64,000 nucleotides of DNA from Fibrisoma limi BUZ 3 (GTDB taxonomy: Bacteria > Bacteroidota > Bacteroidia > Cytophagales > Spirosomataceae), in assembly GCF_000296815.2 (NCBI RefSeq), contig NZ_CAIT01000005.1, positions 310,001-374,000 of the forward strand, written 5' to 3'. The notes under the pieces were generated by a model. It ran no database searches. It was given only the letters and a program-made list of their open reading frames with translations, and was not told the origin of the DNA. Both the position numbers and the translations under genes were made by a program. Numbering within the stretch: the stretch's first letter is position 1; each line of letters opens with the position of its first letter. This document shows positions 42,349 to 61,574 of this stretch, piece after piece.

Positions 42349-42365
42349 ATCAAATCCGGTGCCAG
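42349..42365 (-). promoter_or_regulatory. Sigma-54-like promoter of padR operon 1
   Basis: Read on the minus strand the 17-mer is CTGGCACCGGATTTGAT, to compare with the sigma-54 consensus YTGGCACGRNNNTTGCW. The -24 GG and the -12 TTG are intact with correct spacing; only two positions differ (C for G after TGGCAC, and A for the C after TTG). It lies 40 bp upstream of the start codon. Confidence 0.65.
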
Positions 42366-42423
42366 AATGTGTTATGGCTGTTTTGAGCGTAATCAGACGC
42401 ATGGGTTATCCAAAAATGCGCGC

Positions 42424-42464
42424 AACCTGTCCGTTTTTGGACAGGTTGTGCGTAATACCGGACA
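42424..42464 (-). promoter_or_regulatory. Upstream activating site 1 (TGTCC-N6-GGACA-N16-GGACA)
   Basis: The inverted repeat TGTCC (42428-42432) / GGACA (42439-42443) sits in a longer palindrome with 10-bp arms CAACCTGTCC and its complement, plus imperfect extensions. A third half-site GGACA (42460-42464) stands 21 bp from the second. The promoter-proximal edge is 63 bp from the sigma-54-like element. The same array occurs before the other two padR genes. Confidence 0.75.
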
Positions 42465-42599
42465 ACGTACTACTCGTTTAACTGGTCTGGTGGTAATGCG
42501 GCTTAGCGTATGGACTTACAGGCTGATCTGAACACTCAACCGTTGACAGAACCAGACAGCGAGTGGTCAATGATGGAATGGAATCCTGTGCGTTATGCG

Positions 42600-43535
42600 T
42601 CAGTCGTACATGGCCATATGCCGGAAAATCTTCAGCGCCCCGCCTGGCTCCCGACGCCAGATGCGGATGTCTTTGCCGGTACCTACCCCCGACCAATCCC
42701 CGTTTTTAACGACGGCGATGTGACTGGCGTACTCGATAACAAACCGACCTGAATCATCGATCTGGTCGTTACGAATCGCGAGTTTCTCAAAAACAGGGAG
42801 TTGCTTTACGTGTTCTTTCAGGAAGGCGTCGATTTCTAAACGTCCGCTGTAGGGGCGATTGTGACTATACAGGAAGCGGGCATCGTCGGTGTAGAACTGC
42901 GCCCATAGTCTTTCGTCGTGCTGGCTGATGATTGCCTCCTGAAAGAGATTCAGGGCGGCCAGTTCGAAATGTAGGGGCGTAGATACCGGCACGTGGGCGT
43001 CAAGCGCAACATTGATTACCGGCACTTCTGCAAACAGTAGTTCGTCGCGCCATGGAACGGGGTGGTTGTAATTCCACGCTTCCGTGAGGAGCAATAGCTG
43101 GCCCGTCGCTGACTGGCTCCAGATTGTCAGGTATTTGCCTTGTAGCTCGTGCTGTTGCCCGGAGCTTTTGTGGACTAGATTCATGGTGAATAGGCTCACT
43201 TCAACCACTCGTGTACCTAAGTCAAAAACCTCTACATCCTGCCGACTATAGGCCAGCACCCGGAACCGGGCCAGGAAAGACTGGTAGTACAACCGAGCAT
43301 TGAATTTACTCTTTACGGTTTTCTGGTATTCGGGCATTAGCCGGACGCTGTCGGCGTAATAATCCTGAATGAACGTACACGTACCGGCCAGCAGGCTGTT
43401 GGTGTACGCCGTACGAAACTGATTCAACCGGGCGAGGGTCTGGCCGTCTGCCTTCGTTACGGGCTGAGCAACGCCGTATAGGGTGAGCCCGGTAAAGGTC
43501 GCTATCAGCAGCCACTGAAATGGGTTTCGGAACAT
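42600..43535 (-). CDS. Secreted protein with tandem SnoaL/DUF4440-like domains
   Basis: This 311-aa protein has a signal peptide (FQWLLIATFTGLTLYGVAQP). Two NTF2-like (SnoaL or DUF4440) halves follow. The first covers about 30-150 (FIQDYYADSVRLMPEY), the second about 180-311 (FQEAIISQHDERLWAQFYTDDARFLYSHNRPYSGRLEIDAFLKEH ... WRREPGGALKIFRHMAMYD). The second half has the usual W-R-R/K-x-x-x-G-x-x-K-I end of such domains. NTF2-like folds bind small hydrophobic molecules or act as isomerases or hydrolases; nothing more specific can be given. It ends 135 bp upstream of the operon 1 regulatory site and is preceded 33 bp upstream by the esterase-like gene, probably as one transcript. Confidence 0.75.
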   Translation of the reverse strand: MFRNPFQWLLIATFTGLTLYGVAQPVTKADGQTLARLNQFRTAYTNSLLAGTCTFIQDYYADSVRLMPEYQKTVKSKFNARLYYQSFLARFRVLAYSRQDVEVFDLGTRVVEVSLFTMNLVHKSSGQQHELQGKYLTIWSQSATGQLLLLTEAWNYNHPVPWRDELLFAEVPVINVALDAHVPVSTPLHFELAALNLFQEAIISQHDERLWAQFYTDDARFLYSHNRPYSGRLEIDAFLKEHVKQLPVFEKLAIRNDQIDDSGRFVIEYASHIAVVKNGDWSGVGTGKDIRIWRREPGGALKIFRHMAMYD

Positions 43536-43567
43536 GGATAGTTAAGTTGGAGGTAGCCGGAGTACGG

Positions 43568-44656
43568 TCAGTGGCTGGCTTCAAAAACCAGGTGCCGGTT
43601 CAGGAACGGCAAAAGGCGGGTGTAAAACCGGCCGTCGGCCGTCCAGGTGCGGTTCCAGGGGTCGCCCCGGTACTCTTCCGCTTCGTGTTCTACGCCCAGG
43701 TCTTCGAGTTTGCGGCTGAACGCCCGGTTCGACAGTACATGCGCCTGGTTGGGGTCAAAGCGGCCCCAGTCGAAGGCCAGGCCGCGCAGGGTTCGCAGGT
43801 TGGCCGCCGACTCTTCCAGTGTTTCTTCCAGGTGAAAGCCCCGCTTGGTTTTGCGGGCGTTTTCCGGGTGCAGTTTCAGTTCGCCGTTTTGTGGCTCAGT
43901 GAAAAAATCGCAGTAGAACGGTGGGCGGTTCAGGTTCGGTAAAAAAGCCTGGCTGATGGTGACGAACAGCCGGGTGGGACCATTGTTGCTCAGGTCCGCG
44001 TACGATTTAGCCTGGTGAATGCTTTTCCAGTCAATGGAAAGCGACGCCCAGGGTAAATCACCATTGCCGGTGGCTACCGGATGCAGGGCATACACCGAAC
44101 CAAACACATCGGGATACTCCATCGCCAGCTTCAACGCACCCCGGCCACCCATAAAGTCGCCCGTTACGGCCCGACTGTCGCGGTGGCGAAGGGTACGGTA
44201 GCGACGGTCAATGAACGGCACCAACTCCTGTGTGGTGAAGTCCAGCCAGCGCCCTGATACGAGTGAATTTTCGTAGACGCTGCCGGTGGTTGGGGTACTG
44301 TAATCCGCAGCTACAAAAATGAATGCCTGGGCGATACCGTTGGCAAAGCCCCGGTCGAGCAGGGCTGCCAGTTTCCCGTCTTCAAACAGCCTCTCATTAT
44401 CCCAAAAAATGTTGTGGCAGTAATACACAACCGGATAGGCTTTTCCGGAGGTGGCATAGTCGGGGGGCAGATAAACCTTGATGCGTCGGTTGGTGACGAG
44501 GCCGATGTGGTTCTCGCGGAGGATGGCGGATGACAAGGTCTCGGTCACTACAGTTCCCCGTTTTGGCGGGGCAAGGTCAGGGGCGCCTGGTTGAGCGGAT
44601 AAGCGCGTCGGCGTCAGACCGATCAGCGTAAGTAGTAGGCAGGCATGAAGGTGCAT
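43568..44656 (-). CDS. Secreted esterase-like alpha/beta-hydrolase lacking the nucleophile serine
   Basis: This 362-aa protein has a signal peptide (ACLLLTLIGLTPTRLSAQP) and an esterase D/Fes-type alpha/beta-hydrolase fold. Markers are KVYLPPDYATSGKAYPVVYYCHN, FIFVAADYS, FIDRRYRTLRHRDSRAVTGDFMGGRGALKLAM and a late His in RFYTRLLPFLNRH. In this family the nucleophile elbow is G-x-S-M-G-G. Here it reads G-D-F-M-G-G, with Phe168 (codon TTT) where Ser (TCT would be one base away) is expected. The rest of the fold is intact, so it may be a binding-only paralogue. It is probably cotranscribed with the SnoaL-like gene 33 bp downstream and is divergent from the LytS gene. Confidence 0.82.
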   Translation of the reverse strand: MHLHACLLLTLIGLTPTRLSAQPGAPDLAPPKRGTVVTETLSSAILRENHIGLVTNRRIKVYLPPDYATSGKAYPVVYYCHNIFWDNERLFEDGKLAALLDRGFANGIAQAFIFVAADYSTPTTGSVYENSLVSGRWLDFTTQELVPFIDRRYRTLRHRDSRAVTGDFMGGRGALKLAMEYPDVFGSVYALHPVATGNGDLPWASLSIDWKSIHQAKSYADLSNNGPTRLFVTISQAFLPNLNRPPFYCDFFTEPQNGELKLHPENARKTKRGFHLEETLEESAANLRTLRGLAFDWGRFDPNQAHVLSNRAFSRKLEDLGVEHEAEEYRGDPWNRTWTADGRFYTRLLPFLNRHLVFEASH

Positions 44657-44935
44657 GGGGGGCTGGGGACAACAGTTTGCGTATCTGGCAAATCAATAAT
44701 CCGCCCGTTTCATTGTAAAAACCGTATGACCACCTGCCGCAATTACTTGATGAAACGCCAGAAACCAGCCCAAAGACAACCTGTCGCAGTCCGGCGGGGC
44801 AAAATGCCCCATCGTATTGCAGGACGCGTCATTCGTCAGGTTATGTAGGCCGTTGGTCAATCAGACCGACGTAAGGGTGTAAATTTTGACTACCTTGGAA
44901 ACAGGTCTGTAGTTCGCCAATCGTATCAGCCAGTC

Positions 44936-46057
44936 ATGCGCATGTCGTTTCGTAGTCAGGCCAGTCGGAACTGGTTTTTTCGGTACAAGCTGTATCACCT
45001 GCCATTCTGGTTTGTCTATCACTACCTCTGGTGGGTACTCACCTTTGGCGACCCCTTCAAGGTTATTCAGACCTTAGCCATCCTGCCCTATACGCTCAAA
45101 TACAGCGTTTACGTCGTTTTTCAGGCTCTGGCGGTTTATGCCAACCTGTACGTTCTGATTCCGCGCTATCTCGAAAAAAGCCGGTTCGGGTTCTACCTGG
45201 CGTACTGGCTGCTGACGGTGGTGTGCGCTACGCTCTGCATCGTGGGCGGCTATTACTTCAGCGCCTACGTCAGCCACCGGAGCATTCAGGATTTATACGG
45301 TGAATCGGCCCGGTTTTACGTTTTTCTGGGTAATGCGTTACCGTCCACCGTAGCCAGTATGACGCTGGCGATGAGCATTAAGCTAACCAAAAACTGGGTG
45401 CAGACCCGGCAGCGGCAGCAATTGCTCGAAAAGGAAAAGCTGGAAACCGAACTAAAGTTTTTAAAGAATCAGTTCAACCCGCATTTTCTGTTCAACACAA
45501 TCAACTCCATCTTTTTCCTGATCCATAAAAACCCGGATATGGCTTCGGCATCGCTGGCGAAGTTTTCTGAACTGCTACGGTATCAGCTTTACGAATGCAA
45601 CGATGGGCCGATTCCGCTGAAACGCGAAATTACGTACCTCAAAAACGTGATGGAACTGGAGGAACTCCGCCTGAACGACAACGTAAGGGTGACGTTCGAC
45701 GTTGAGCTGGCGCTGGCAGAACAGTTGGGTATTGCGCCTTTCATTCTAATGCCCTTTGTTGAAAACGCCTTCAAACATGTCTCCAAACAACGTGATCGTC
45801 TGAACTGGATTACCATCAAACTGGCCGTAACCGGCGGACAACTCGACTTTCGGGTAGCCAATAGCACAGACTCAGACGCGGCTCGGGAAGTGGTTCAGTA
45901 TGGCGGCATTGGTCTGAAAAACGTGCAGCGCCGACTCGATTTGATTTATCCCGATCAGTACAAATTGACTATTCAGCATGACCCCGGCCAGTTTACCGTA
46001 ACGCTACGGGTTATGCTGGCCGAACTAACGCCATCACCTACATTGCAAGTGGTCTGA
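44936..46057 (+). CDS. LytS-type sensor histidine kinase
   Basis: This 373-aa membrane kinase has four hydrophobic segments (about 21-38, 47-77, 86-112, 128-148). A short coiled-coil (RQRQQLLEKEKLETELKFL) precedes the phospho-acceptor motif NQFNPHFLFNTINSI (H183). The N-box PFVENAFKH and glycine box YGGIGLKNVQRRL complete the HATPase domain. It has no separate extracellular sensor domain, so it likely senses within the membrane. It is followed after 3 nt by the LytTR regulator gene, with which it forms a two-component system. The pair sits between two permease operons; a functional link is possible but unproven. Confidence 0.93.
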   Translation: MRMSFRSQASRNWFFRYKLYHLPFWFVYHYLWWVLTFGDPFKVIQTLAILPYTLKYSVYVVFQALAVYANLYVLIPRYLEKSRFGFYLAYWLLTVVCATLCIVGGYYFSAYVSHRSIQDLYGESARFYVFLGNALPSTVASMTLAMSIKLTKNWVQTRQRQQLLEKEKLETELKFLKNQFNPHFLFNTINSIFFLIHKNPDMASASLAKFSELLRYQLYECNDGPIPLKREITYLKNVMELEELRLNDNVRVTFDVELALAEQLGIAPFILMPFVENAFKHVSKQRDRLNWITIKLAVTGGQLDFRVANSTDSDAAREVVQYGGIGLKNVQRRLDLIYPDQYKLTIQHDPGQFTVTLRVMLAELTPSPTLQVV

Positions 46058-46060
46058 ACC

Positions 46061-46792
46061 ATGAACCTGAACTGTGTCATCATCGACGATGAGCCGCTGG
46101 CCCGCGAGGGGCTGGCCAGCTACGTGCGCGAGATCGATTTTTTGCACCTGACTGCGACCTGCGAGAACCCACTCGAACTGCTTACCCTGCTGGATCGGCA
46201 GCCGGTCGCCCTGATTTTTCTGGATATTCAGATGCCCAAGATGAACGGAATCGATTTTTTGAAAGTGGTATCCAACCCACCGTTGGTCATCCTTACCACG
46301 GCCTACCCGACTTTCGCACTGGAAGGATTTCAACTGAATGTGCTGGATTACCTGCTTAAACCCATCACGTTCGACCGCTTTGTGAAGTCGGCGAATAAAG
46401 CCCGTGATTACCACCGGCTCCTGACCCAATCAGCAACAGCCCCTCTACCGAATACCGAAGCCCAGCCCGATTATTTTTTTATCAAATGCGGTAACAAGTA
46501 TGAGAAGCTGGTTTACGAGGATATTCTGTTTGTGGAGGGGCTACAAAACTACGTCACCATCGTCACCCGAAAAGCCAGGTACGTAACGCTGCTGAACCTG
46601 AAAAGTCTGGAACAAAACCTGACCAGCCCTGCTTTTATTCGGGTGCATAAATCGTACCTGGTTGCCACGCAAAAAATTGATGCCATTGAAGGAAACGAGC
46701 TGTTTATTCAATCCTATCGCATCCCGATTAGTCGTAACTACCGCGATCAGGTCCTGAACGAAGTGCTGACGAACCGACTCTGGAAGAAGTGA
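46061..46792 (+). CDS. LytTR-family response regulator
   Basis: This 243-aa protein has a receiver domain at 1-118 (acidic pocket D9/D10, phospho-acceptor D55 in LIFLDIQMPKMNG, T in ILTTAYP and K in YLLKPI). A LytTR DNA-binding domain at about 145-243 contains FIKCGNKYEKLVYEDILFVEGLQNYVTIVT and IRVHKSYLVATQKIDAIEGNELFI. It is the partner of the upstream kinase, with genes 3 nt apart. LytTR regulators bind direct repeats upstream of few target genes; none can be assigned here. The ATG follows the kinase stop directly. A convergent permease gene ends 48 bp downstream. Confidence 0.95.
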   Translation: MNLNCVIIDDEPLAREGLASYVREIDFLHLTATCENPLELLTLLDRQPVALIFLDIQMPKMNGIDFLKVVSNPPLVILTTAYPTFALEGFQLNVLDYLLKPITFDRFVKSANKARDYHRLLTQSATAPLPNTEAQPDYFFIKCGNKYEKLVYEDILFVEGLQNYVTIVTRKARYVTLLNLKSLEQNLTSPAFIRVHKSYLVATQKIDAIEGNELFIQSYRIPISRNYRDQVLNEVLTNRLWKK

Positions 46793-46840: not shown

Positions 46841-49504
46841 TTATTCGGCCCTCAAACTCTTCACCGGATTCATCAAAGCCGCTTTGATACTCTGGTAGCT
46901 CACCGTCAGGAAAGCAACAAGGACGGCCAGCAAACCCGCCAGCCCGAAAAGCCACCACGACAGTTCCTCATGGTAAGCAAACGTACCCAGCCACTGGCTC
47001 AAGGCCCACCACGCCAGCGGTACAGCCAGCACAAGCGCGATCAGGACCAGGAGCAGAAAATCTTTGGAGAGTAATCCAACAATGTTGGTAACGCTGGCAC
47101 CCAGTACTTTCCGCACCCCAATTTCTTTGGTACGTTGTTCGGCCGTGAAAGCCGCTAAGCCAAACAGTCCCAGGCACGAAATTAGAATTGCCAATATGCC
47201 AAAGTAGTTGACCAATGTGTTGACCTGCTGCTCACTCCGGTACAGTTTTTCGTATTCTTCATCCAGAAAGTGGTAATTAAACGGATAGTCTGGAGTAAAC
47301 TTCTTTGAAATGTTAGTCAGATCAGCCAGGGCCTGCTGCGTTTGTCCCGGACGGGTTTTAACCAGTAAGTATTCGACGTTCAACCCGTTGAAACAAAGAA
47401 TCAGGGGCTTGATTGGCTCATGAAGCGAATGCAGATGAAAGTCTTTCATCACCCCAACAATCCGGCCTTTGCCCATCCAGAACGTCACCTCCTTGCCGAC
47501 AGGGTCTTTCATGGCTGGAGCCGATTGGGCCATCATTCTGGCGGTTGCCTCGTTAATGATGTAATTGGACGAATCGGCGGGGCTATCGGCCCGGAAGTCG
47601 CGCCCGTCGGCCAGTTTAATGTTCATGGTACGGGTAAAATCACTGCCCACAAACATGGCCCAAACCGACGAAGACTGATTCGGGTCCATTCCTGGCCAGC
47701 TCAGATCGCCCGATGAACCTTGTACATTCACCGGCAAAGAGCCCGCCGTGGTCACCGATGCGATGGAAGGCTGCCGTAGTATTTCCTGCCGTAGCGCGTT
47801 GAACTTCGTTGGTTCGTTGATCCCTTCAATGGGCCAATACAGCACGTTCTCCCGGTCGAGGCCCAGATGCTTCGTGCGTAGATAATTCATCTGCCGACCA
47901 ACGGCCAGCATGCCTACAATCAGAAAAATGGACATTGAAAACTGAAACACGACCAGCATGCGCCGAAAGAGGGCCGGACCTGCGCCAAATTGCAGCCGGC
48001 CTTTCAGGATCTTGATCGGTTGCAGCGATGACAGAAACAGGGCCGGATAACTACCCGAGAAAAAGCCTGTAATCAGCACTAAGCCGCCGAGTAAAAGCCA
48101 AAAGTCAGACTGGTTGAAATCGAGGGTTAACTGCTTGTTGAATAAGGTATTGAATGTAGGCAGTACGGATAAAACCAAAACCAGGGCAAGCGCAGCAGCC
48201 AGCAAACTGGTGAGTAGGGATTCGCTCAGAAATTGGCCAATCAGCGACGTACGTAAGGCGCCAACTACTTTCCGGACTCCGACCTCCCGCGCTCGTGTTG
48301 CCGAGCGGGCGGTGGCCAGGTTCATAAAATTGATGCAGGCAATCAAGAGAATGAACAGGGCTACGATTGCGAAAACCCGGACGTACTCAATGCGGCCACC
48401 GGCTGGTTTACCATTCTCGTACTCGCCGTACAGATGCAGGTCCGTGATGGCTTGCAGCGTTGGCCGACCGGTATCGAAATTTTTGCCGGCCCGACGAGGG
48501 TAAATGTCCTTCATAGCGGCTTCAGCCTGGGCCAGCGTTACGTGCGGTTTTAGTCGGACAAACGTCTGGAAGGAGTTATTACCCCATGTTTTCATCCAGT
48601 TCTCTTCCTGAACTTTCCAGTTAACAAGCCAGTCGAACTGCAACGAGGAATTGGACGGCAGGTTTTCAATCACGGCGCCAACTACGTAAAATTTGTCATT
48701 ATTGAGTTGCAGCGTTTTCCCCAAAGCCAGTCCATTGGGAAAGAACGTTTCGGCAACTTTTCGAGTAATGACAATCTGGTTGGTTTGCTTCAGAGCCGCT
48801 TTGGGATTGCCGTATACGGCAGGCAGATCAAACACACCGAAAAAATCATCGGTAGCGTAATGACCTTTCTCTTTGGCCGCTTTATCGCCTACCTTGATCA
48901 GATATTCCGGGCCGTAGTTGATTTTGGTAACAGCCGCCACCTCGGGTACATCCTGCGCGATGGCCTCCTGCAAAGGACCGGGTGTAACCCAGTTTGTTAC
49001 GGGGACTTCGCCGGTGTTAGGATCAACAAAATTAACCCGCACGAAGGCTATCTTTTCGGCATCGGGCAGGAAGCGGTTGTAACTGAATGCATCCTTCACC
49101 CACAGCCCAATCAGCAGGCTGCAGGCCATGCCCAACGCCAGTCCAAAAACGTTGATGAACGAATAGACCTTATTTTTCGCCAGGTTTCGAGAGGCTACTT
49201 TAATGTAGTTGCGGATCATAATGGGACTTAGAAAGTAAGGTTGAGAATAATCGCTTTGGGTACGCTGCTGATGCCTGATTCGTCGCTTCAGAAAGTAAGG
49301 CCGACAGAACCTGAGCACCTCCAGCGCGTACAATCGTCGGGCTTTGGCTTCACCTAGTTCGGCGGCCTGCTCCGCAAACTGTTCGTGTAAATCGCCCAGT
49401 AGTTCTTCCAGCAGATCGGCTGGCAGCACTCGCTTCAGGAGTCGGTCAGCCCAGCGGGGTGGCCGGCGATCGGGTGGAGTGGGATTTGTGGAATGAAGTG
49501 CCAT
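46841..49504 (-). CDS. FtsX/MacB-type permease with prefix domain (operon 2, sole permease)
   Basis: This 887-aa permease starts 3 bp after the padR stop. Its prefix (about 17-75) is more divergent than those of the other permeases: PPRWADRLLKRVLPADLLEELLGDLHEQFAEQAAELG, with VLPADLLEE replacing the usual VAPHLxE. TM1 is FGLALGMACSLLIGLWVKD. FtsX modules are at ACINFMNLATARSATRAREVGVRKVVG and EQRTKEIGVRKVLGASVTNIVGLLSKDF, with the end ALMNPVKSLRAE. A C-rich or lipid motif is absent. It is the only permease of its operon and its prefix does not share the near-identical DNA seen in operons 1 and 3. It converges on the LytTR gene. Confidence 0.9.
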   Translation of the reverse strand: MALHSTNPTPPDRRPPRWADRLLKRVLPADLLEELLGDLHEQFAEQAAELGEAKARRLYALEVLRFCRPYFLKRRIRHQQRTQSDYSQPYFLSPIMIRNYIKVASRNLAKNKVYSFINVFGLALGMACSLLIGLWVKDAFSYNRFLPDAEKIAFVRVNFVDPNTGEVPVTNWVTPGPLQEAIAQDVPEVAAVTKINYGPEYLIKVGDKAAKEKGHYATDDFFGVFDLPAVYGNPKAALKQTNQIVITRKVAETFFPNGLALGKTLQLNNDKFYVVGAVIENLPSNSSLQFDWLVNWKVQEENWMKTWGNNSFQTFVRLKPHVTLAQAEAAMKDIYPRRAGKNFDTGRPTLQAITDLHLYGEYENGKPAGGRIEYVRVFAIVALFILLIACINFMNLATARSATRAREVGVRKVVGALRTSLIGQFLSESLLTSLLAAALALVLVLSVLPTFNTLFNKQLTLDFNQSDFWLLLGGLVLITGFFSGSYPALFLSSLQPIKILKGRLQFGAGPALFRRMLVVFQFSMSIFLIVGMLAVGRQMNYLRTKHLGLDRENVLYWPIEGINEPTKFNALRQEILRQPSIASVTTAGSLPVNVQGSSGDLSWPGMDPNQSSSVWAMFVGSDFTRTMNIKLADGRDFRADSPADSSNYIINEATARMMAQSAPAMKDPVGKEVTFWMGKGRIVGVMKDFHLHSLHEPIKPLILCFNGLNVEYLLVKTRPGQTQQALADLTNISKKFTPDYPFNYHFLDEEYEKLYRSEQQVNTLVNYFGILAILISCLGLFGLAAFTAEQRTKEIGVRKVLGASVTNIVGLLSKDFLLLVLIALVLAVPLAWWALSQWLGTFAYHEELSWWLFGLAGLLAVLVAFLTVSYQSIKAALMNPVKSLRAE

Positions 49505-52779: not shown

Positions 52780-55398
52780 GCTTTTGACCGGGTCCAATGT
52801 AGCCGCTTTGATGCTTTGATAACTGACCGTTAGCAACGTAATGCCCATTGCCCCTGCGCCCGTTACTGCGAAAATCCACCAGGATATATCGGTTCGGTAC
52901 TCATATTTCTCGAGCCAGTTGCTCAGGAAATACCAGGCAAGGGGCGTGGCGATACTGAAGGCAATGGTGACCAGAACCACAAAATCTTTCGAGAGTAGGC
53001 CCCACAAACTGAAGACTGTAGCGCCCAACACTTTCCGGACGCCAATCTCTTTAGTGCGCTGTTCGGCTACAAACGAGGCCAGCCCAAATATGCCCAGGCA
53101 ACTGATAAAGACGGCGAGTATAGCGAAGACCGAAGCGAGTTTACCAATCCGTTCTTCAGCGGCAAATTTCAGAGCGTATTGCTGATCGGTGAATTTGTAA
53201 TCGAACGGACTTCCGGGGTTGAATTTTTGAAATACGGTTTCGATTTTAGCCAGCGATTCGGGCGCGCTCTCCTTTGGATTGAGTTTAATGTTAATAACAT
53301 TCGCCCAGCCATAGTTCAGCATGAAAACCGTCTGGTAAACCGGTTTGAACGGCGAGCCCATCACCATGTCTTTGACAACGCCCAGCACCCGCATGGGTTT
53401 GCCATTCCATTTCACGATCATGCCCACGGGTGATCCGGTTTTCAGGTTCATGTACTTCGCTGCCGTTTCGTTCATGACCAGGGCTGCCGAATCAGTGGAG
53501 AAAGCCCGGGAAAAATCGCGGCCTTCCTTAAACTGCCAGCCAACCGTTTTTCCAAAGTCGTGAGTAACGGCAATTGTCCCGAATTGGGCATTAAAATTGG
53601 GATCTTTTCCTTCCCAGTCGAATCCGATATTTTGTGAATTCAGGTCCGTTGCGGGCGTCGATGAGGTAGACATGTCCACCACCGCACCGGTTCGTAACAG
53701 CTCTTCCCGGAGGGCATTATAATGGTTATGCAACTCAGGCGTGTTCATGGCTACCGTAATCAGTCCATTGCGGTCATAGCCAATCGGACGATTTTTGGCG
53801 TACTGAATCTGGCGGAAAACCAGAATCGTTCCAATGATGAGCGTAACCGAAACCGTAAACTGGACAACCACCAATACCTTCCGGGGCACACTGGCGAATC
53901 GACCTGCCCTGAACGTACCTTTCAGAACTTTAACCGGCTGAAATGAGGACAGGTAAAACGCGGGGTAACTACCGGCTATAAGGCCTGTAAACAGGCTAAA
54001 TCCGACTACCGAAACCCAAAACACAGGACTATCCCATAAGATACCTACTTGTTTGTCGGCCACTTCATTGAAGAGGGGGAGCGCAAGGATTACCAGGAGC
54101 AGCGACAAGGTTAACGCACACGCAACAACCAGTAGCGATTCACTGAAAAACTGACTAATGAGTTGAGAGCGCACCGACCCCACCGCTTTTCGAATACCCA
54201 CTTCTTTGGCTCGCTTTTCGCTTCGGGCCGTACTCAGATTCATGAAGTTGATGCAGGCCAGCAGCAACACAAACAGGCCAATAAGACCGAAGAGCCAGAC
54301 ATACTGAATGCGTCCTTCCAGGTTTCCCTGTTTATCCCAGCCGGTGAATAAATGCCAGCGACTCATGGGTTGTAAAAATACCTCCGCTTTGTAAGGAGCC
54401 GTTTCCGGAACATGCTTGACCCGTAGCCCTTTGATTTTGGCATTAACAGCATCGAAAGTAGCGTTAGGGGCGATCTGAGCCAGTATTTGCCAGGAGTTAT
54501 TGTTCCATTCCATATTGTCCTGCGCTCGCTTTACCCATGCCTCCGACGACACATATAAAGCCCAGGGAGCTATAAAGGTCATGTCTCTGAACTCGGTGTT
54601 ATAAGGCAGGTCTTCGTATACACCCGTTACCATTACGTTCAGTTTGTTGTCGATCATTACGATTTTCCCCAGCGGGTTGTCGTTCCCGAAAAGTGCCTGA
54701 GCGACAGACTCCGACAGCATAATAGACGCCGGATCTTTTAAGCCCGCCCGTGTGCCCCGCAGCATCTTCAGGGTAAACATATCCGGGGCTTCCGGACTGA
54801 GATAACTTCCCTGTTTGGTGAATTTTTTGTCGCCGTAAGCCAGAATATGCTCCCCATTCCAGGACGCCATGACAACGTAGGTGAAGTCGTCGGCGAAATT
54901 GGTACGTAATTCATTGCCTAACGGAAGGGGCATATGGCTCCCTGCACCAAACGCCCCTTCAAATGTGGCGCTTTGCATGACCCTGGCAATGCGGTTATAA
55001 TTCTGGTGGTATTTGTTGAAGGAGAGTTCGTCGTAAATCCACAACCCAATCAACATGGCCACAGCCATACCTACGGCCAGTCCACCAATGTTAATAGCCG
55101 AATAGGCCTTGTTCTTGGCAAGATTACGGAGGGCGATTTTGAGATAGTTTCGTAGCATAGTCGTATTAGTTGGTTGAGGGTGTTTTGGTTGTTCCCGACG
55201 AATGAAGCGGGGCCGCACATAGGCCAGCACCTCGCGCCAGTACGTTCGCCGGGCCGCCCGCTCACCCAGCCGTTGCACACGCAGGGCGTAGCGCTCGTGG
55301 ATGTCGCCCAGCACCTCCTCCCGCAGGTGGGGTGCGATGAGCCGGTTGAGTAGGCGGTCAGGCCATTTGGGGGGCGGAGGTGGTTGGTTCGGGTTCAT
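52765..55398 (-). CDS. FtsX/MacB-type permease with prefix domain (operon 3, third permease)
   Basis: This 877-aa permease starts at the ATG at 55398 (MNPNQPPPPPKWPDRLL). The prefix is at about 10-70. TM1 follows AINIGGLAVGMAVAMLIGLWIYDEL. The first FtsX module is LACINFMNLSTARSEKRAKEVGIRKAVGSVRSQ and the last EQRTKEIGVRKVLGATVFSLWGLLSKDF. It ends ATLDPVKSLRSE, where the usual ALMNPVKS or ALVNPVKS box reads TLDPVKS. Its two periplasmic domains are most like those of the downstream permease. The gene begins 71 bp after the previous stop, across hairpin B. Topology and lack of an ATPase are as in the other members. Confidence 0.9.
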   Translation of the reverse strand: MNPNQPPPPPKWPDRLLNRLIAPHLREEVLGDIHERYALRVQRLGERAARRTYWREVLAYVRPRFIRREQPKHPQPTNTTMLRNYLKIALRNLAKNKAYSAINIGGLAVGMAVAMLIGLWIYDELSFNKYHQNYNRIARVMQSATFEGAFGAGSHMPLPLGNELRTNFADDFTYVVMASWNGEHILAYGDKKFTKQGSYLSPEAPDMFTLKMLRGTRAGLKDPASIMLSESVAQALFGNDNPLGKIVMIDNKLNVMVTGVYEDLPYNTEFRDMTFIAPWALYVSSEAWVKRAQDNMEWNNNSWQILAQIAPNATFDAVNAKIKGLRVKHVPETAPYKAEVFLQPMSRWHLFTGWDKQGNLEGRIQYVWLFGLIGLFVLLLACINFMNLSTARSEKRAKEVGIRKAVGSVRSQLISQFFSESLLVVACALTLSLLLVILALPLFNEVADKQVGILWDSPVFWVSVVGFSLFTGLIAGSYPAFYLSSFQPVKVLKGTFRAGRFASVPRKVLVVVQFTVSVTLIIGTILVFRQIQYAKNRPIGYDRNGLITVAMNTPELHNHYNALREELLRTGAVVDMSTSSTPATDLNSQNIGFDWEGKDPNFNAQFGTIAVTHDFGKTVGWQFKEGRDFSRAFSTDSAALVMNETAAKYMNLKTGSPVGMIVKWNGKPMRVLGVVKDMVMGSPFKPVYQTVFMLNYGWANVINIKLNPKESAPESLAKIETVFQKFNPGSPFDYKFTDQQYALKFAAEERIGKLASVFAILAVFISCLGIFGLASFVAEQRTKEIGVRKVLGATVFSLWGLLSKDFVVLVTIAFSIATPLAWYFLSNWLEKYEYRTDISWWIFAVTGAGAMGITLLTVSYQSIKAATLDPVKSLRSE

Positions 55399-55483
55399 GG
55401 TTTGTGGGGCCGGGGGCGAAGGGCTGAGCCTGGTCACCCCAAGCTCCCGGCCCCACGCCCTTAGCCAATTACTCGGACCGTAA
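55222..55483. repeat. About 262-bp junction repeat, copy B
   Basis: This copy covers the prefix of the third permease of operon 3, its start, the hairpin and the stop of the second permease. One change in the right hairpin arm (C to T) still allows a G-U pair, so the structure is kept. Confidence 0.88.
55404..55456 (-). other. GC-rich intercistronic hairpin B
   Basis: GTGGGGCCGGGGGC (55404-55417) pairs with GCTCCCGGCCCCAC (55443-55456) with one wobble. It is located between the second and third permease genes of operon 3. Confidence 0.68.
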
Positions 55484-58195
55484 GCTTTTTACCGGATTTA
55501 CAAGGGCCGCTTTGACAGCCTGAAAACTCACTGTCAGCAGTGCCAGGCCTATGGCTGCCGATCCCGCTGCCACAAACAGCCAGCCGCTCAGCGTTGTACG
55601 GTAGGCAAAGCCCTGGAGCCAGCCATCCATGAAATACCAGGCCAGTGGACTGGCGATTAACAAGGCGATCAGGATCAATCCCACGATCTCCTGACAAAGC
55701 ATAACCACAATGCCCGATACCGTAGCCCCTAATACCTTCCGAATGCCGATCTCCCTAGCCCTTCGTTCCGTCGAGAAAACGGCCAGCCCCAGCAGGCCTA
55801 AACAAGAGATTAAAACGGTGATCACCATCGCCATATTGGTCAACCGCTCGGTGCGAAGATCGTCCGCATACAGACTAGCAATGCTATCCTCAAGAAACGA
55901 ATAGGCAAACGGCTTTTCGGGAAAGACCCGCTTCCATTCATCCTCTATTTTGCCCAGGAGCGTCTGCAATTCCCCAGCGGCCATGCCTTTGGCGGCTATT
56001 TTGACCGCAATGACCGTCTCTCGGGTGGGGTTGTGTCGGATGACGATTGGCCAACTCGCCTGATGAAACGAGTTCTCATAAAAATCAGCCACCACGCCAG
56101 CGATCGGGTAGACCTCGACGGGGCTGGCGACCAACTCTCGACCAATAGCCTGGTTCACATCGGTAAACCCTAAAGCATGCGCACAAGTCTCACTGATCAG
56201 CACCTCTCGGGCACTGTCGCCTGGAAGCAGATTTCGGCCCGCCACCAGCTTCATCTCATAAAAAGGGACGTAATCCTGGTTGCCGAAATGAAAAGATAGA
56301 TCGATTGGTTTCTCCGTGCTGTTTTTCAGACCACCACCGCCGAATCCACTATGCTTCTGGTCCATCGGTGACTTCCACTGCCTGATCACCTGCTCGACAC
56401 CGGCCAGTTGTCGGATCTTTTCGGTCAATACCGCTAGCTTACCCGTCTCATCTATAGGGGGTAGCCTCGGCTTAGTCTTGTCCGACCCGATCGCTGCGTG
56501 ATGCATACTATTGTCAGGCGGACCACCGAGCGTGATAATGGCATCTGTTTTGAAACCCAGATCCGCCTGCAGCACGTACCGTAACTGCGAACCAATGACC
56601 AGGGATGCTATGATAAACACCAACGATATGGTAAACTGGAAGATGATGAGACCTCGGCGCAGCGTTCCTTTTCCGCTGCCTGTTGCCGCCGTGATTCCTT
56701 TCAGGGTCAGTATAGGCTGATAACTCCCCAGCACCTTAGCGGGATAAAACCCCGCCAGCAGGGTTGTCACCGCCGTCGCCAGCAGTAAAAATAATCCGGT
56801 AGCACGATCCACCCGAAAATGAACGCCCCCCGGGATCAAGTCGGCGAACCCATTCATCACCGGTCTTATCATCAGTACGGCAAGACCTACGGCGGCTAGA
56901 GTCAATACCAGGGATTCGGTAAAAAATTGCCCGGCGATGCCCGACTGGTTACCGCCCAACACCTTTCGAACCCCGATCTCTCGGGCTCGTTGCATGGCTT
57001 GCGCGGTCGACAAATTGACAAAATTGATAACGGCAAGAATAAGGATAAATCCTGCCGCTGCCATGAGTGTGTACAAAACCGGTAAACTGGCCTTTCTGCC
57101 TGATCCACCATATTCGGGATGGAAATGGCTACCCAACAGCGGTTTCAACTGAGCGGAGAAGTCGGGTTTTGGGCCGTAATGCCGTTTGGCAAAGGCGATA
57201 AATTGAGCATCAATCTGGGCAGGTTTTACCTCCTTTGCCAGTTTGATGATGACCTGGCTGGACCGATTTAACTTATCCCAGCTCTCCAGCGTGAACTCTC
57301 TTTTCAAAAAACTGGCTGGGATCGTCGCATAGGAGATCCATTGGCTGAAATTAAAATCACTGTTACCCTGCCAATCGGCGACAACCCCGGTTACGGTGAC
57401 CATCAGCGAATCCTGGTAATAGAGGGTTCGGCCGATGACCCGGTGTGGGTCGAGATCGCCAAAGTATTTTCTGGCTCGTTCGGCGGTAAGCACAACGGCG
57501 TTGGGCTGGGACAGGGAAGTGGCGGCATTTCCGCTTAACCATTGGTAGCGAAAAATGTCGAAGTATTGGGGTTCGACGATAGCGATGCTCCCCTCGTAAT
57601 TAAAGCGCTTTGATTTTCCATTCTGATCGCCGGGTATCGTCACACTGGCACCATAGGTCTGAAAACCGGCCACAGTCTCGAAGCCTGTCATTTCACGGCG
57701 CATGGCGGCCGGCATAGGACCGGGTACGCAATTCCAACGCCCACCAAAAACGACCGCATCTACACAATAAATGCGATCAGCGTCGGCATGAAACGTATCA
57801 AAACTGAATTCGTAGCGGGTAATCAGATAAATGCCCAGACAGGTACCAATGCCCAATGCTAAGCCTACTACGTTGATGAACGAATAAACCTTGTTGCGGG
57901 CTAGTTTGCGAACGGCAATTTTGACATAATTACGTAGCATGTCGGTATTTGTTGGTTTTGGGTAAGCCCGGTACGCCGGAACGTTCGGTTTTCGTTTGAT
58001 GAACTGAGGCCGCATGTAAGCCAGCACCTCGCGCCAGTACGTTCGCCGGGCTGCCCGCTCACCCAGCCGCTGCACACGCAGGGCGTAGCGCTCGTGGATG
58101 TCGCCCAGCACTTCCTCCCGCAGGTGGGGTGCGATGAGCCGGTTGAGTAGGCGGTCAGGCCATTTGGGGGGCGGAGGTGGTTGGTTCGGGTTCAT
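55469..58195 (-). CDS. FtsX/MacB-type permease with prefix domain (operon 3, second permease)
   Basis: The 908-aa protein starts at the ATG at 58195 and shares the MNPNQPPPPPKWPDRLL prefix. The core is unlike the two downstream permeases. TM1 is VGLALGIGTCLGIYLITRYEFSF. The first FtsX module is ILAVINFVNLSTAQAMQRAREIGVRKVLGGNQSG, with V-I-N in place of the usual A-C-I-N-F. The second is ERRAREIGIRKVLGATVSG with end ALVNPVKSLRSE. It is the longest permease here, owing to a longer first periplasmic loop. A glycine-rich insertion (KHSGFGGGGLKN) lies in the second periplasmic domain. The identical prefix on a divergent core supports prefix exchange between permeases. Confidence 0.9.
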   Translation of the reverse strand: MNPNQPPPPPKWPDRLLNRLIAPHLREEVLGDIHERYALRVQRLGERAARRTYWREVLAYMRPQFIKRKPNVPAYRAYPKPTNTDMLRNYVKIAVRKLARNKVYSFINVVGLALGIGTCLGIYLITRYEFSFDTFHADADRIYCVDAVVFGGRWNCVPGPMPAAMRREMTGFETVAGFQTYGASVTIPGDQNGKSKRFNYEGSIAIVEPQYFDIFRYQWLSGNAATSLSQPNAVVLTAERARKYFGDLDPHRVIGRTLYYQDSLMVTVTGVVADWQGNSDFNFSQWISYATIPASFLKREFTLESWDKLNRSSQVIIKLAKEVKPAQIDAQFIAFAKRHYGPKPDFSAQLKPLLGSHFHPEYGGSGRKASLPVLYTLMAAAGFILILAVINFVNLSTAQAMQRAREIGVRKVLGGNQSGIAGQFFTESLVLTLAAVGLAVLMIRPVMNGFADLIPGGVHFRVDRATGLFLLLATAVTTLLAGFYPAKVLGSYQPILTLKGITAATGSGKGTLRRGLIIFQFTISLVFIIASLVIGSQLRYVLQADLGFKTDAIITLGGPPDNSMHHAAIGSDKTKPRLPPIDETGKLAVLTEKIRQLAGVEQVIRQWKSPMDQKHSGFGGGGLKNSTEKPIDLSFHFGNQDYVPFYEMKLVAGRNLLPGDSAREVLISETCAHALGFTDVNQAIGRELVASPVEVYPIAGVVADFYENSFHQASWPIVIRHNPTRETVIAVKIAAKGMAAGELQTLLGKIEDEWKRVFPEKPFAYSFLEDSIASLYADDLRTERLTNMAMVITVLISCLGLLGLAVFSTERRAREIGIRKVLGATVSGIVVMLCQEIVGLILIALLIASPLAWYFMDGWLQGFAYRTTLSGWLFVAAGSAAIGLALLTVSFQAVKAALVNPVKSLRSE

Positions 58196-58280
58196 GGTTT
58201 GTGGGGCCGGGGGCGAAGGGCTGAGCCTGGTCACCCCAAGCCCCCGGCCCCACGCCCTTAGCCAATTACTCGGACCGTAA
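58020..58280. repeat. About 262-bp junction repeat, copy C
   Basis: The third copy runs from the prefix of the second permease of operon 3 through the hairpin to the stop of the first permease. A further, more diverged prefix copy lies at about 60800-60930 in the first permease gene, without the downstream part of the unit. Confidence 0.88.
58201..58253 (-). other. GC-rich intercistronic hairpin C
   Basis: GTGGGGCCGGGGGC (58201-58214) and GCCCCCGGCCCCAC (58240-58253) form perfect 14-bp arms between the first and second permease genes of operon 3. Confidence 0.7.
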
Positions 58281-60983
58281 ACTCTTGACCGGATTTACAA
58301 GGGCGGCTTTTATCGCCTGGTAGCTGACGGTCGCTAAGGCAATGAGTATAGACAAGATCCCTGCTACGGTAAACATCCACCATTCCACATCAATGTGGTA
58401 AGCAAACTCTTGTAGCCATTGATGAGTAGCCCACCAGGCCAGCGGAAAGGCGATGCCATTGGCAATCAAGACTAACTTCAAAAAATCTTTGGAAAGTAGA
58501 GCGGTAAGGTTCAGGACGCTTGCTCCTAGCACTTTCCGAACACCTATTTCTTTAATGCGTTGTTCGGCGGCATAGGTAGCCAACCCGAAGAGGCCCAGGC
58601 AGGCAATGAAAATCGTAGCCAGTGCTACCCAGATCAGCAAGGTTTCCCGGCGCTGGTCTTCGGCGTAGAAACGGGCCAGTTGCTCATCCAGAAAGTGATA
58701 TTCCAACTGGTGCGTAGGATCAATACTGGTCAAAACGTCGTTCATTTTGGCCAAGGTCGCCGGAATATCCCTGCCTTCGATTCGGGCTGTATAATAATCG
58801 ATCGGAAAGACCGGATTCTGCTGGTAAGCCAACACCAGCGGGGCAATCTTTTCGCGTAAGGATTGAAAGTGAAAATCCTTTACAATACCGACGACCCTTG
58901 CGTTAAAAGGCTGGTTAGCCTCGTTGAGTGGGCTATAGCTTCCCCCCATTCCTCGGGCGGGTATCTCAACTTGCTGCGCCGAAGCCTCCCGGATACCGAG
59001 TAGTTTAGCGGCTGTTTCGTTTACGATGACGGATGTCGAATCGCTCATTCCGCTAAAATTTCGACCGTTCAGCAACTGTACTTCAAAGGTCCTGGCGAAG
59101 TTCTCGTCGGCTCCAATCAGGTAAGCGATTTTGTGTTCGTCGGTATTTCCCTCGGGCCTGATTTTGACCGTAGAAATTGTCTTCCACTCGCCTGGTACTC
59201 GCGAGGTCGCCGATACGTTTTTGACGGTTGGAATCCGGCTAAATTCGGTTTTGATCGTTTCGGCACCACTCCGAATTTTGCCACTGTTGATGTCGATTAC
59301 CACCAATAGCTCTTTGTTGAAGCCCAGATCCTTGTTGTTGGCAAATCGAACTTGCTGGAAAAGCACGATGGTGGCGATCATCATGACGACCGAAATTGTA
59401 AACTGGAACACGACCAATCCTTTCCGCAGTGACAGATCGCCTTTGTTTTGCAGTTTAAGATTCTTCAGCAGCAAGAGGGGACTAAAACGAGACAGTAAGA
59501 AGGCGGGATAACTGCCCGATAACAAGGCCGTGATAATCAGGGCGACAAAGGTGTATAGCCAAATTCGATAATCACTAAAAATGCCTAACGAGAGTTCTTT
59601 ATCGGTGAATTCATTAAAGGCAGGAAGCAGTAGATTGACCAATACCACGGCCAGCAGAAAAGAAATAGCCGTTACCACCAGCGATTCGGTCAGGAACTGA
59701 TGGATGAGATGGCTCTGAAACGCGCCACTGGCTTTACGAACACCAATTTCCTTCGACCGGTTGGAAGCCCGGGCTGTGGCGAGGTTCATGTAATTAATGC
59801 AGGCAATGAGCAAGACAAACAAGGCCACAACCGCAAAGATTTTGATGTAAAGCAAAACCCCCTGGCTCATCGCTTCTACGTTACCGTTTCTGGCGCCATC
59901 CTCAATGTTTTCGGAGTATAAGTGCATGTCAGCCAGGGGTTGAAGTGAATACCTCACTGAATGCCCGGCCTCCCGTTTCAGATTGATATTGAGCAGGTTG
60001 TTAATCTTCTGAGCCGCGACTTCCGGATTGGCCTGTTGCTTCAATAGGAAAAACGTCAGGAAATTTTGGTCATCCCAATTAGCTATCCATTGAGCAAAGT
60101 CGTCGCTGTTGACGATGGTCGCTTCCGAGATGATCGAATTGAAGGTAAAACTTGAATTGCGGGGATGACTTTTCAGGACGGCCGTAATCTTCAGCGGTTT
60201 ATCGGGCATGAATTCAACGATGACGGTTTTGCCAACAACCTGCGTGGTGTTGAAAAGCCGTTGCGCTAACTCCTCGACGATGACAATCGTATTTGGTTCG
60301 TTTAACCCCGACTTGCTGTCGCCGTCAAGGGCTTCAAAATCGAACATCTCCAACAGCCCTGAGCTACCGAAAGCGATTGTTTCCTGAAATGTATTCTTAT
60401 TGTCCGGGTTTGAGAGATTTGCCCTTCCAACCCGGTTAATCCGGGCCGAGTTTTCGATTTCGGCAATCTGTTTTTTGGATTCTTCGGCCACTTTGTAGCT
60501 CGATGCCGCCATCGTCAGATCTTCGGTAGGCGTTTTTTTATGCTGGATAGCCCGGTAAATCCGGTTTGTTCGGCTGTGTTGCTGATCAAACGTTAGTTCA
60601 TCGAAGAGGTACAATCCGATCAGTAAAAAACAAGTGACACCGAAGGTCAGACCGGCCACGTTGAGGCCCGTGTACAGCTTGTGTCGGCTCAGGGTTCGAA
60701 AAGCAATTTTGAAGTGGTTGCGTAGCATGTCGGTATTTGTTGGTTTTGGGTAAGCCCGGTACGCCGAAACGTTCGGCTGGCGTTTGATGAATCGAGGTCG
60801 TACATAGGCCAGCACCTCGCGCCAGTAGGTTCGCCGGGTTGCCCGCTCACCCAATCGTTGCACCCGCAGGGCGTAGCGCTCGTGGATGTCGCCCAGCACC
60901 TCCTCCCGCAGGTGCGGAGCCACCAGCCAGTTGAGCAGCTTGTCGGGCCAATTAGGCGGTTGCGGGGTCGGTAATGGGTTCAT
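58266..60983 (-). CDS. FtsX/MacB-type permease with prefix domain (operon 3, first permease)
   Basis: This 905-aa permease starts at ATG 60983 (MNPLPTPQPPNWPDKLLNWLVAPHLREEV). TM1 is AGLTFGVTCFLLIGLYLFDEL. The first FtsX module is ACINYMNLATARASNRSKEIGVRKASGAFQSH and the last EQRIKEIGVRKVLGASVLNLTALLSKDF. The ending is ALVNPVKSLRSE. Many periplasmic residues are Asn, Lys, Ile and Asp, and the coding sequence is somewhat AT-richer than that of the following genes. A 50-bp stretch after TM1-proximal codons (about 60727-60777) is nearly identical to 57938-57990 in the next permease. It lies 87 bp after padR, across a further long hairpin. Confidence 0.9.
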   Translation of the reverse strand: MNPLPTPQPPNWPDKLLNWLVAPHLREEVLGDIHERYALRVQRLGERATRRTYWREVLAYVRPRFIKRQPNVSAYRAYPKPTNTDMLRNHFKIAFRTLSRHKLYTGLNVAGLTFGVTCFLLIGLYLFDELTFDQQHSRTNRIYRAIQHKKTPTEDLTMAASSYKVAEESKKQIAEIENSARINRVGRANLSNPDNKNTFQETIAFGSSGLLEMFDFEALDGDSKSGLNEPNTIVIVEELAQRLFNTTQVVGKTVIVEFMPDKPLKITAVLKSHPRNSSFTFNSIISEATIVNSDDFAQWIANWDDQNFLTFFLLKQQANPEVAAQKINNLLNINLKREAGHSVRYSLQPLADMHLYSENIEDGARNGNVEAMSQGVLLYIKIFAVVALFVLLIACINYMNLATARASNRSKEIGVRKASGAFQSHLIHQFLTESLVVTAISFLLAVVLVNLLLPAFNEFTDKELSLGIFSDYRIWLYTFVALIITALLSGSYPAFLLSRFSPLLLLKNLKLQNKGDLSLRKGLVVFQFTISVVMMIATIVLFQQVRFANNKDLGFNKELLVVIDINSGKIRSGAETIKTEFSRIPTVKNVSATSRVPGEWKTISTVKIRPEGNTDEHKIAYLIGADENFARTFEVQLLNGRNFSGMSDSTSVIVNETAAKLLGIREASAQQVEIPARGMGGSYSPLNEANQPFNARVVGIVKDFHFQSLREKIAPLVLAYQQNPVFPIDYYTARIEGRDIPATLAKMNDVLTSIDPTHQLEYHFLDEQLARFYAEDQRRETLLIWVALATIFIACLGLFGLATYAAEQRIKEIGVRKVLGASVLNLTALLSKDFLKLVLIANGIAFPLAWWATHQWLQEFAYHIDVEWWMFTVAGILSILIALATVSYQAIKAALVNPVKSLRSE

Positions 60984-61002
60984 AGCGTAGGGCTTGAGGC
61001 CG

Positions 61003-61063
61003 GGGGCGCAGGGCGTGGTGACCTGGGCTTACCCTAAGCCCCTTGCCCCACGCCCTGCGCCCC
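61003..61063 (-). other. Hairpin between padR and first permease of operon 3
   Basis: GGGGCGCAGGGCGTGG (61003-61018) and CCACGCCCTGCGCCCC (61048-61063) are perfect 16-bp arms around a 29-nt loop. It lies between the padR stop (61071) and the permease start (60983). Its sequence differs from hairpins A-C, but its position and GC-richness are alike. With no T-run, an attenuating or stabilising role is more likely than full termination. Confidence 0.7.
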
Positions 61064-61070
61064 AAGCTGG

Positions 61071-61406
61071 TTAACTCCACTTGAGTATGGTTTGCGGAAT
61101 GATCCGGTCCCAGAGCCGGTTGCGTACCGAACGAACTTCGCTCAGCACGCGACCACCCAGCGCCGTAACGGTGAACAGCCGTTTGCGTCGACCACCCCGT
61201 TCGGGCGTGGCTTCGCCCAGTTCCGAGCGGAGGTAGCCCTTTTGTTCGAGTCGTTGGAGAGCCGCGTGAACCGCCCCGGTGCTGACGGTCTGGCCCGTTT
61301 CCCGTTCGAGTTCTTCGGCGATAACCACCGAATACGCCCTGGGCGAGAGTACGGCCACGGCCAGCAAAACGACCTCTTCAAACTCGCCTAAATCACTCCG
61401 TCGCAT
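61071..61406 (-). CDS. PadR-type transcriptional regulator (operon 3)
   Basis: This 111-aa winged-helix protein has DLGEFEEVVLLAVAVLSPRAYSVVIAEEL, the helix TGAVHAALQRLEQKGYLRSEL and the wing GEATPERGGRRKRLFTVTALG. Compared with the other two, YG in the AYGV segment is AYSV and Y-R-L is Q-R-L, the only notable changes in otherwise shared motifs. It is the first gene of the four-permease operon, divergent from an AraC-family gene. Its start at 61406 is 53 bp from a sigma-54-like element and 132 bp from the TGTCC site. Confidence 0.92.
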   Translation of the reverse strand: MRRSDLGEFEEVVLLAVAVLSPRAYSVVIAEELERETGQTVSTGAVHAALQRLEQKGYLRSELGEATPERGGRRKRLFTVTALGGRVLSEVRSVRNRLWDRIIPQTILKWS

Positions 61407-61458
61407 GGGTAGAAAGTAGCGGTTACTATGGGTTGTAGTATTTTATCTATTTCCGTAT

Positions 61459-61475
61459 GTCAAATGCCTTGCCAA
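61459..61475 (-). promoter_or_regulatory. Sigma-54-like promoter of padR operon 3
   Basis: Read on the minus strand: TTGGCAAGGCATTTGAC. It keeps YTGGCA, G-R and TTG with the sigma-54 spacing. Mismatches to YTGGCACGRNNNTTGCW are A for C after TGGCA, A for C after TTG, and C at the final W. The central GGCATTTG is the same as in operon 2. Confidence 0.6.
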
Positions 61476-61537
61476 AAAGTAAAGTTGCCTTTACTGTGTT
61501 GGAAATGGGGGTTTATGGTGTATCATTACGTACTGGC

Positions 61538-61574
61538 TGTCCAGAAACGGACAGAATTTGTACGAGCGCGGACA
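61538..61574 (-). promoter_or_regulatory. Upstream activating site 3 (TGTCC-N6-GGACA-N16-GGACA)
   Basis: TGTCC (61538-61542) and GGACA (61549-61553) are separated by 6 bp, and the third GGACA (61570-61574) is again 21 bp farther. The promoter-proximal edge is 63 bp from the sigma-54-like element, identical to operon 1. It also lies 67-103 bp upstream of the divergent AraC-family gene, so an additional effect on that gene is possible. Confidence 0.75.

Follow-up and report, generated by a model that had tools for sequence, protein, structure and literature searches.

The question raised by this 64-kb stretch of Fibrisoma limi DNA (the window; positions 310001-374000 of contig C10 in the 7.63-Mb assembly) is how three operons that each begin with a padR gene and continue with large permease genes are controlled. 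A preliminary description of the window had proposed that all three are turned on together from sigma-54 promoters by an NtrC-type activator bound to an upstream array, TGTCC-N6-GGACA-N16-GGACA. The evidence from sequence presented here makes it likely that the regulator designated NtrC65, binding as two dimers to a pair of adjacent dyads, activates the sigma-54 promoters of one permease regulon. The sites in the window on which this reading is built are as follows.

42428-42464, minus strand: tandem-dyad predicted activator site (array) of operon 1; distal dyad degenerate, TGTCCGGTATTACGCA; proximal dyad perfect, TGTCCAAAAACGGACA
42351-42365, minus strand: -24/-12 element of operon 1, CTGGCACCGGATTTG, 62 bp from the array
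49934-49970, minus strand: tandem-dyad predicted activator site of operon 2, an exact array match
49868-49882, minus strand: -24/-12 element of operon 2, CTGGCAGGGCATTTG, 51 bp from the array
61538-61574, minus strand: tandem-dyad predicted activator site of operon 3, an exact array match
61461-61475, minus strand: -24/-12 element of operon 3, TTGGCAAGGCATTTG, 62 bp from the array

The array is real, being exact and identically spaced at the three places and present in none of 100 dinucleotide shuffles, but it is not, as first described, a dyad followed by a single GGACA. The N16 stretch conceals the other half of a second dyad, and the unit is therefore a pair of 16-bp dyads, TGTNCR-N4-YGNACA, with centers 21 bp (sometimes 22 bp) apart; the lone GGACA marks where this second dyad ends on its outer side. 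The second dyad is often degenerate, whereas the promoter-adjacent dyad is perfect in all three window operons. The three YTGGCA-N6-TTG elements are on the minus strand as described, but their starts had been placed 2 bp too low; the distances of 63, 52, and 63 bp obtained by the earlier way of counting are the gaps of 62, 51, and 62 bp given above. Taken alone, YTGGCA-N6-TTG is unremarkable (5 in the window versus 1.44 expected), and the remarkable feature is its fixed placement beside the array.

Across the genome the full 15-base array has seven exact matches, versus about 0.014 expected from an arithmetic estimate; six precede padR-permease operons and one precedes an FtsX-permease cluster. 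When up to 3 mismatches are allowed, a relaxed tandem-dyad pattern has 21 and 22 matches on the two strands, compared with 6 and 4 for its reversed form as a control; matches with no more than one mismatch are confined to 11 array places. Relaxed matches, arrays with 22-bp spacing, and sites reached from the promoter side together make up a count of 16 array places, from a search that was not exhaustive.

C10:352428, 359934, 371538, 385611, 418905, 434958, and 444400, C6:134153, and C9:290037: arrays of nine padR-permease operons
C11:856552 and 867525: arrays of two FtsX-permease clusters
C5:346292 and 348275 and C9:564052: arrays of three small DUF3244-like genes
C11:895573: array of an adaptor/ABC operon near the NtrC65 gene
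C8:487617: array of an ABC ATPase gene

The array is thus not scattered at random sites, the outcome that had been named as contrary to the proposal: the 16 places precede padR-permease, FtsX-permease, adaptor/ABC, ABC ATPase, or DUF3244-like genes. The idea of an NtrC-type activator site serving one regulon is supported on sequence evidence, with the qualification that the regulon is wider than the padR-permease operons. Array quality is uneven, and both C9:290037 and C11:895573 have one full dyad plus a half-site; the latter, the 22-bp-spaced array of the adaptor/ABC operon, has TTGGCACGACTATTG at 53 bp. The element also varies, with TAG for TTG at C11:867525 and TGGCT at C6:134153. FtsX-type permease genes not preceded by an array of their own are numerous (for example, in loci L048 and L053). 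A composite pattern, GGACA-N48..70-TGGCA-N6-TTG, has 16 matches versus 5 in controls, and nine of these are regulon places. Two other places were left out of the count, namely C9:1127737, which has one mismatch to the array and was mapped and excluded, and C9:503916, which has two mismatches to the tandem-dyad pattern. The inner palindrome alone was rejected as a marker, as it occurs at 8 places versus 8 in the reversed control; six of its 8 places are within 83 kb on C10.

The DUF3244-like genes are a recurrent target of the array, both in this genome and in Spirosoma loci, one site (L238) having three consecutive dyads. The encoded small proteins (L054 7761-8165 and 9751-10161; L052 10204-10575) are, by eye, probably secreted, and in the two of the three array-target genes that were scanned the DUF3244 match is just above cut-off.

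Because the dyads have TGT...ACA ends, like the PadR operator form ATGT-N8-ACAT, they might be operators through which the PadR proteins repress their own operons, and their distribution is in part what this would predict. Of 11 PadR genes over cut-off in the genome, nine precede permeases, and dyad and element are present at all nine, eight having two dyads (some degenerate) and the ninth, C9:290037, one dyad and a half-site. However, the two PadR genes without permeases have neither dyad nor element upstream, and the dyads are not confined to PadR-controlled genes as operators of this kind should be, since they are also found at seven places in the genome that lack padR (FtsX, DUF3244-like, adaptor/ABC, and ABC ATPase). 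In other genomes the same sites precede adaptor, ABC, and permease genes beside relatives of NtrC65. Moreover, the dyads are upstream of the promoter element, not over it, on a ladder of about 10.4 bp that is described below. Repression by PadR through these dyads is very improbable.

The relation between array and element was examined with the element defined as TGG[CT][AC]-N6-[TA][TA]G. Within the F. limi genome, 12 of 13 arrays have an element on the gene side at 51-65 bp and 1 of 13 has one on the opposite side; in 2000 sets of shuffled flanks the average was 0.07 elements per 13 and the highest number was 2, and the thirteenth array has TTGGCTAAAGATTTG at 53 bp. A pattern scan of GTDB provided, among the matches listed, 118 stretches with 123 sites, a sample that is neither random nor complete; base counts over 64 elements are from the first 80 of these stretches, and the other cross-genome element counts are from all 118. 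At 40-75 bp from the array an element is present at 92 of the 123 sites, whereas 237 control windows displaced by 200 bp contain 3 elements. TGG[CT]A and TTG are separated by six bases in 90 occurrences and by any other spacer of 2-11 bases in at most 9, so the fixed N6 between TGGCA and TTG that characterizes sigma-54 promoters is present.

The distances of the 96 elements from their arrays are not spread evenly: 5 are at 42-43 bp, 1 at 47, 59 at 50-54, and 31 at 61-67, with none at 55-60, and one additional site beyond the 123 (L224) has its element at 74 bp. In the range of 6-16 bp the best period is 10.3 bp for all 96 elements and 10.4 bp for the 63 combinations of genus, class, and distance. 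None of 5000 smooth simulations attained the observed coherence at periods of 9.5-11.5 bp, although it should be noted that this was a single smooth (Gaussian) null and that the genus labels were compiled manually. The upstream dyads therefore lie on one face of the helix, as is characteristic of NtrC-type activators, and a placement originally deduced from three sites is found to hold over 96 elements; phase and spacing together fit a predicted sigma-54 promoter with a face-of-helix enhancer.

It could be argued instead that TTGGCA-N6-TTG is part of a housekeeping Bacteroidota promoter, which has a TAnnTTTG -7 box, and that a repressor or some other factor acts at the dyads; the padR promoters end in ATTTG, a partial likeness to that box, and most elements lack the -12 C of sigma-54 promoters. 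The strong preference for N6 between TGG[CT]A and TTG, the array-element phase, and the neighboring sigma-54-type activators all argue against a housekeeping promoter. So does the lack of conservation of the TA that the -7 box needs: T is present in 8 and A in 16 of the 64 elements at these two places, in counts where the GG and G letters were demanded by the search rule. This explanation appears most improbable.

The components required for enhancer-dependent activation are encoded in the genome. A profile search identified rpoN (187.7 bits versus a cut-off of 22.8) and 11 strong NtrC-type AAA+ matches, with 4 more that are weak (28-34 bits), in agreement with what the preliminary description presupposed. 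Its view that sigma-54 promoters are absent from many Bacteroidota does not apply to this order, in which 143 of 148 genomes have rpoN; for the same reason, the presence of rpoN does not discriminate. Two of the activators are relevant to the array.

C11:897532-898947: NtrC65, the candidate activator, with a receiver, a sigma-54 AAA+ domain, and a Fis-type helix-turn-helix by domain scan
C9:1442688-1444034: NtrC63, a paralogue 46% identical to NtrC65

NtrC65 thus has the domain composition of an NtrC-type activator, and its gene adjoins that of a histidine kinase with PAS and HATPase domains. At 20 of the 123 sites the array is adjoined by a gene for an NtrC65 relative (44.8-68.4% identity) that reads away from it, and at 17 of these 20 an adaptor, ABC, or permease gene reads away on the other side. 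The 20 sites are from Pontibacter (8), Runella (4), Sphingomonadales (3), Larkinella (2), Chitinophaga (2), and Flavobacterium (1); one further listed site (L107) is near a fragment weakly similar (27%) to another activator. The association is also apparent in the 148 genomes of the order, where NtrC65-like proteins were defined by a best E value below 1e-140 and NtrC63-like proteins by a hit in the range from 1e-100 to about 1e-133; the genome lists were compiled manually, and phylogenetic dependence is only partly removed. Arrays are present in 36 of the 148 genomes, and an NtrC65-like protein is encoded in 35 of these 36 compared with 37 of the 112 others (Fisher p 1.1e-12). The exception is G036, whose array has an element 53 bp away, is close to a contig end, and precedes the gene for an adaptor that shares 47% identity with that of F. 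limi.

A variant of this model, in which another activator such as NtrC63 reads the arrays or several activators have overlapping sites, deserves consideration in view of the similarity of the paralogue and its location in a comparable operon of adaptor, outer membrane protein, ABC, and FtsX genes. The start of that operon (L063 ~2896-2999) is organized in the same way, its TGTGCG-N4-CGCACA dyad being separated by 52 bp from TTGGCACATCATTTG, and NtrC63-like proteins are mildly enriched in array genomes (16 of 36 versus 17 of 112). However, the half-sites of the NtrC63 dyad are TGTGCG, and G occupies that place in only 1 of 52 array half-sites, a tally in which two of 26 dyads were misplaced (L050 4958, with a spacing of 22, and L050 14379, which should be 14400), slightly diluting the base counts. 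Arrays are found in 0 of 6 genomes with only NtrC63-like proteins, 19 of 45 with only NtrC65-like proteins, 16 of 27 with both, and 1 of 70 with neither, and at none of the 123 sites is the neighbor closest to NtrC63. The one NtrC63 operon suggests that position 4 of the half-site distinguishes NtrC65 from NtrC63; an array in G140 with TGTGC half-sites, about 100 bp from an NtrC65-like gene, counts against a strict form of this rule. Recognition of the arrays by an activator other than the NtrC65 type, alone or in combination, is unlikely.

Several observations weigh against activation of sigma-54 promoters by NtrC65. The sigma-54 consensus has GC at -13/-12. The elements had been described as fitting the consensus at most positions; this is borne out for TGGCA and TTG at N6 but not for -12, where 91 elements at the listed sites have G in 35, T in 28, A in 18, and the textbook C in only 10; the G at -13 is demanded by the element rule and hence is no evidence. 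A search of the F. limi genome for YTGGCAC-N5-TTG gave 27 sites without enrichment (9 and 18 versus 13 and 13 in controls), which is uninformative about the -12 C at other sigma-54 promoters in this organism. The loop of NtrC65 is GAFTDA, where GAFTGA is standard for the NtrC type; excerpts of a report on a Dickeya regulator with GAFTDA describe a pull-down without sigma-54 (PMC10714721), whereas those of a Desulfovibrio study list sigma-54 targets for a GAFTDA protein and give the variant as compatible with activation (PMC4641369). No element by the rule is present at 31 of the 123 sites, including all six from Sphingomonadales (L142, L166, L167, L170, L183, and L189), where the array sometimes abuts the start codon. 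NtrC65-like proteins are encoded in 37 of 112 genomes without arrays, which means that the site is subject to drift or that certain homologues have other binding sites, and the reversed control pattern is found in 3 of 148 genomes, so that a few genomes with single arrays may have them by chance. In F. limi itself one gene separates NtrC65 from its adaptor operon. Finally, 18 array places were retrieved from 18 of the 36 array genomes, picked for having few arrays; 2 are beside NtrC65 or its adaptor and 3 precede permease or DUF3244-like genes, but 13 precede genes that match no reference protein, 6 of these 13 having an element at 51-65 bp.

Three of the six Sphingomonadales arrays adjoin NtrC65 relatives, and these arrays, with no sigma-54-like element by the rule, may work differently. 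Among the four Acidobacteriota sites one has an element by the rule, and the other three have TGGC(A/C)-N6-NTGC as judged by eye and post hoc. The matches in a Clostridia metagenome-assembled genome (L088, L103, and L178) and in Nocardia (L160) were kept within the 123 sites but, from their sequences, look like other repeats or chance; the TGTCC-type palindromes of the Clostridia genome are probably of a different sort, an unrelated repeat. In three genomes of one family (L231, L232, and L233) the array is located between the same unclassified genes, with no -24/-12 element by the rule.

The genes of the three window operons, all on the minus strand, are as follows.

41974-42309, minus strand: padR of operon 1 (111 aa; Pfam PadR, 30.8 bits, cut-off 27)
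33925-41961, minus strand: three tandem permease genes of operon 1 (39271-41961, 36619-39249, and 33925-36615), assigned by size, order, and strand, with 39271-41961 also scanned
49508-49834, minus strand: padR of operon 2 (108 aa; PadR match at C10:359568-359777, over cut-off)
46841-49504, minus strand: permease gene of operon 2 (887 aa), assigned by size, order, and strand
61071-61406, minus strand: padR of operon 3 (111 aa; Pfam PadR, 34.3 bits; padR_acidobact below cut-off)
50052-60983, minus strand: four tandem permease genes of operon 3 (58266-60983, 55469-58234, 52765-55437, and 50052-52754), assigned by size, order, and strand, with 58266-60983 also scanned

The Pfam scan of permease 39271-41961 shows two MacB_PCD and two FtsX stretches and no ATPase domain, and the open reading frame list contains no ATPase or adaptor among the window operons. 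This organization, with padR in front, is like that of the ADOP permeases of Acidobacteria and their PadR (TIGR03434 and TIGR03433). However, the two window permeases scanned, 58266-60983 and 39271-41961, score 284.7 and 339.2 bits, respectively, with the ADOP model, below its cut-off of 622.3, and both carry permease prefix domain 2 (perm_prefix_2; NF038404, 92.8 and 96.1 versus a cut-off of 35). A true ADOP from another phylum, that of Acidipila rosea (L123 4495-7175, 878.2 bits), also has the array upstream. MacAB-type exporter operons, with adaptor, ABC ATPase, and FtsX permease, carry the same site and flank NtrC65 relatives; the window operons differ from them in having neither ATPase nor adaptor of their own. 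Between operons 1 and 2 there is a LytTR two-component pair at window positions 44936-46792 (His_kinase, then Response_reg-LytTR).

The predicted system resembles known sigma-54/NtrC-type promoters (AtoC, ZraR, and NtrC) in having an activator with receiver, AAA+, and Fis helix-turn-helix domains, a kinase partner, dyads upstream of a -24/-12 element, and a preference for helix phase. It differs in that the sites are in one-turn steps close to the promoter, the -12 C is not conserved, the loop is GAFTDA, and many targets are permeases without an ATPase; also, NtrC65 does not reach the curated cut-off for any of the 25 NCBIfam models shown out of 81. In another member of the Bacteroidota, Flavobacterium psychrophilum, start-site mapping has defined a sigma-54 regulon with -24/-12 promoters and envelope-stress genes among its targets, and the excerpted text names neither an activator site nor padR-permease operons (PMC9723704). 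None of the terms Bacteroid-, Flavobacter-, permease, PadR, MacB, and Acidobacter- is used in PMC3162934. In the literature searched, which covers few subscription journals, no paper was found that deals with the site, with its activator, or with the control of padR-permease operons by sigma-54. The regulon appears to be new and widespread, although enhancer-dependent sigma-54 control is of a kind already known.

In the mechanism proposed for NtrC65, the PAS-domain histidine kinase encoded beside it would be its partner and would phosphorylate it in response to a signal. Phosphorylated NtrC65 would then bind the paired 16-bp dyads as two dimers side by side, positioned on the proper helical face at roughly four, five, or six turns from the -24 box on its upstream side, and contact across a short loop would allow the sigma-54 polymerase to open the DNA at TTGGCA-N6-TTG. 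One regulon would thereby be turned on. Besides the nine padR-permease operons it would comprise the two FtsX-permease clusters and the three DUF3244-like genes, along with the adaptor/ABC-ATPase operon and another ABC ATPase. PadR, the product of the first gene in each padR-permease operon, would probably serve as a local brake or feedback, and we infer that the products constitute an envelope-stress or export program. That permeases share ATPases is suggested, though not demonstrated, by the presence of the site at ATPase-less permeases as well as at two ABC ATPases and an adaptor. A more extended proposal is tentative and, taken as a whole, doubtful. In it, one two-component system would co-induce an adaptor together with ABC ATPases and a large number of permeases lacking an ATPase, and the orphan permeases would thereby draw on common ATPases within a modular export machine. 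In Bacteroidota and, in variant form, in Acidobacteriota and Sphingomonadales, the activators with GAFTDA would have co-evolved with sigma-54 promoters that do without the -12 C.

Placed in steps of about 10.4 bp, the 96 elements offer an unusually clean natural case of face-of-helix enhancer placement, and the missing -12 C together with the GAFTDA loop poses a concrete question for the biochemistry of sigma-54. The genome of F. limi is rich in MacB/FtsX-type permeases that have neither an ATPase of their own nor a known substrate. Through one predicted activator and a site that can be read in the DNA, many of these orphan permeases are linked to one signal. The same predicted regulon also takes in adaptor and ATPase genes, which would make the function of these permeases testable through one gene.

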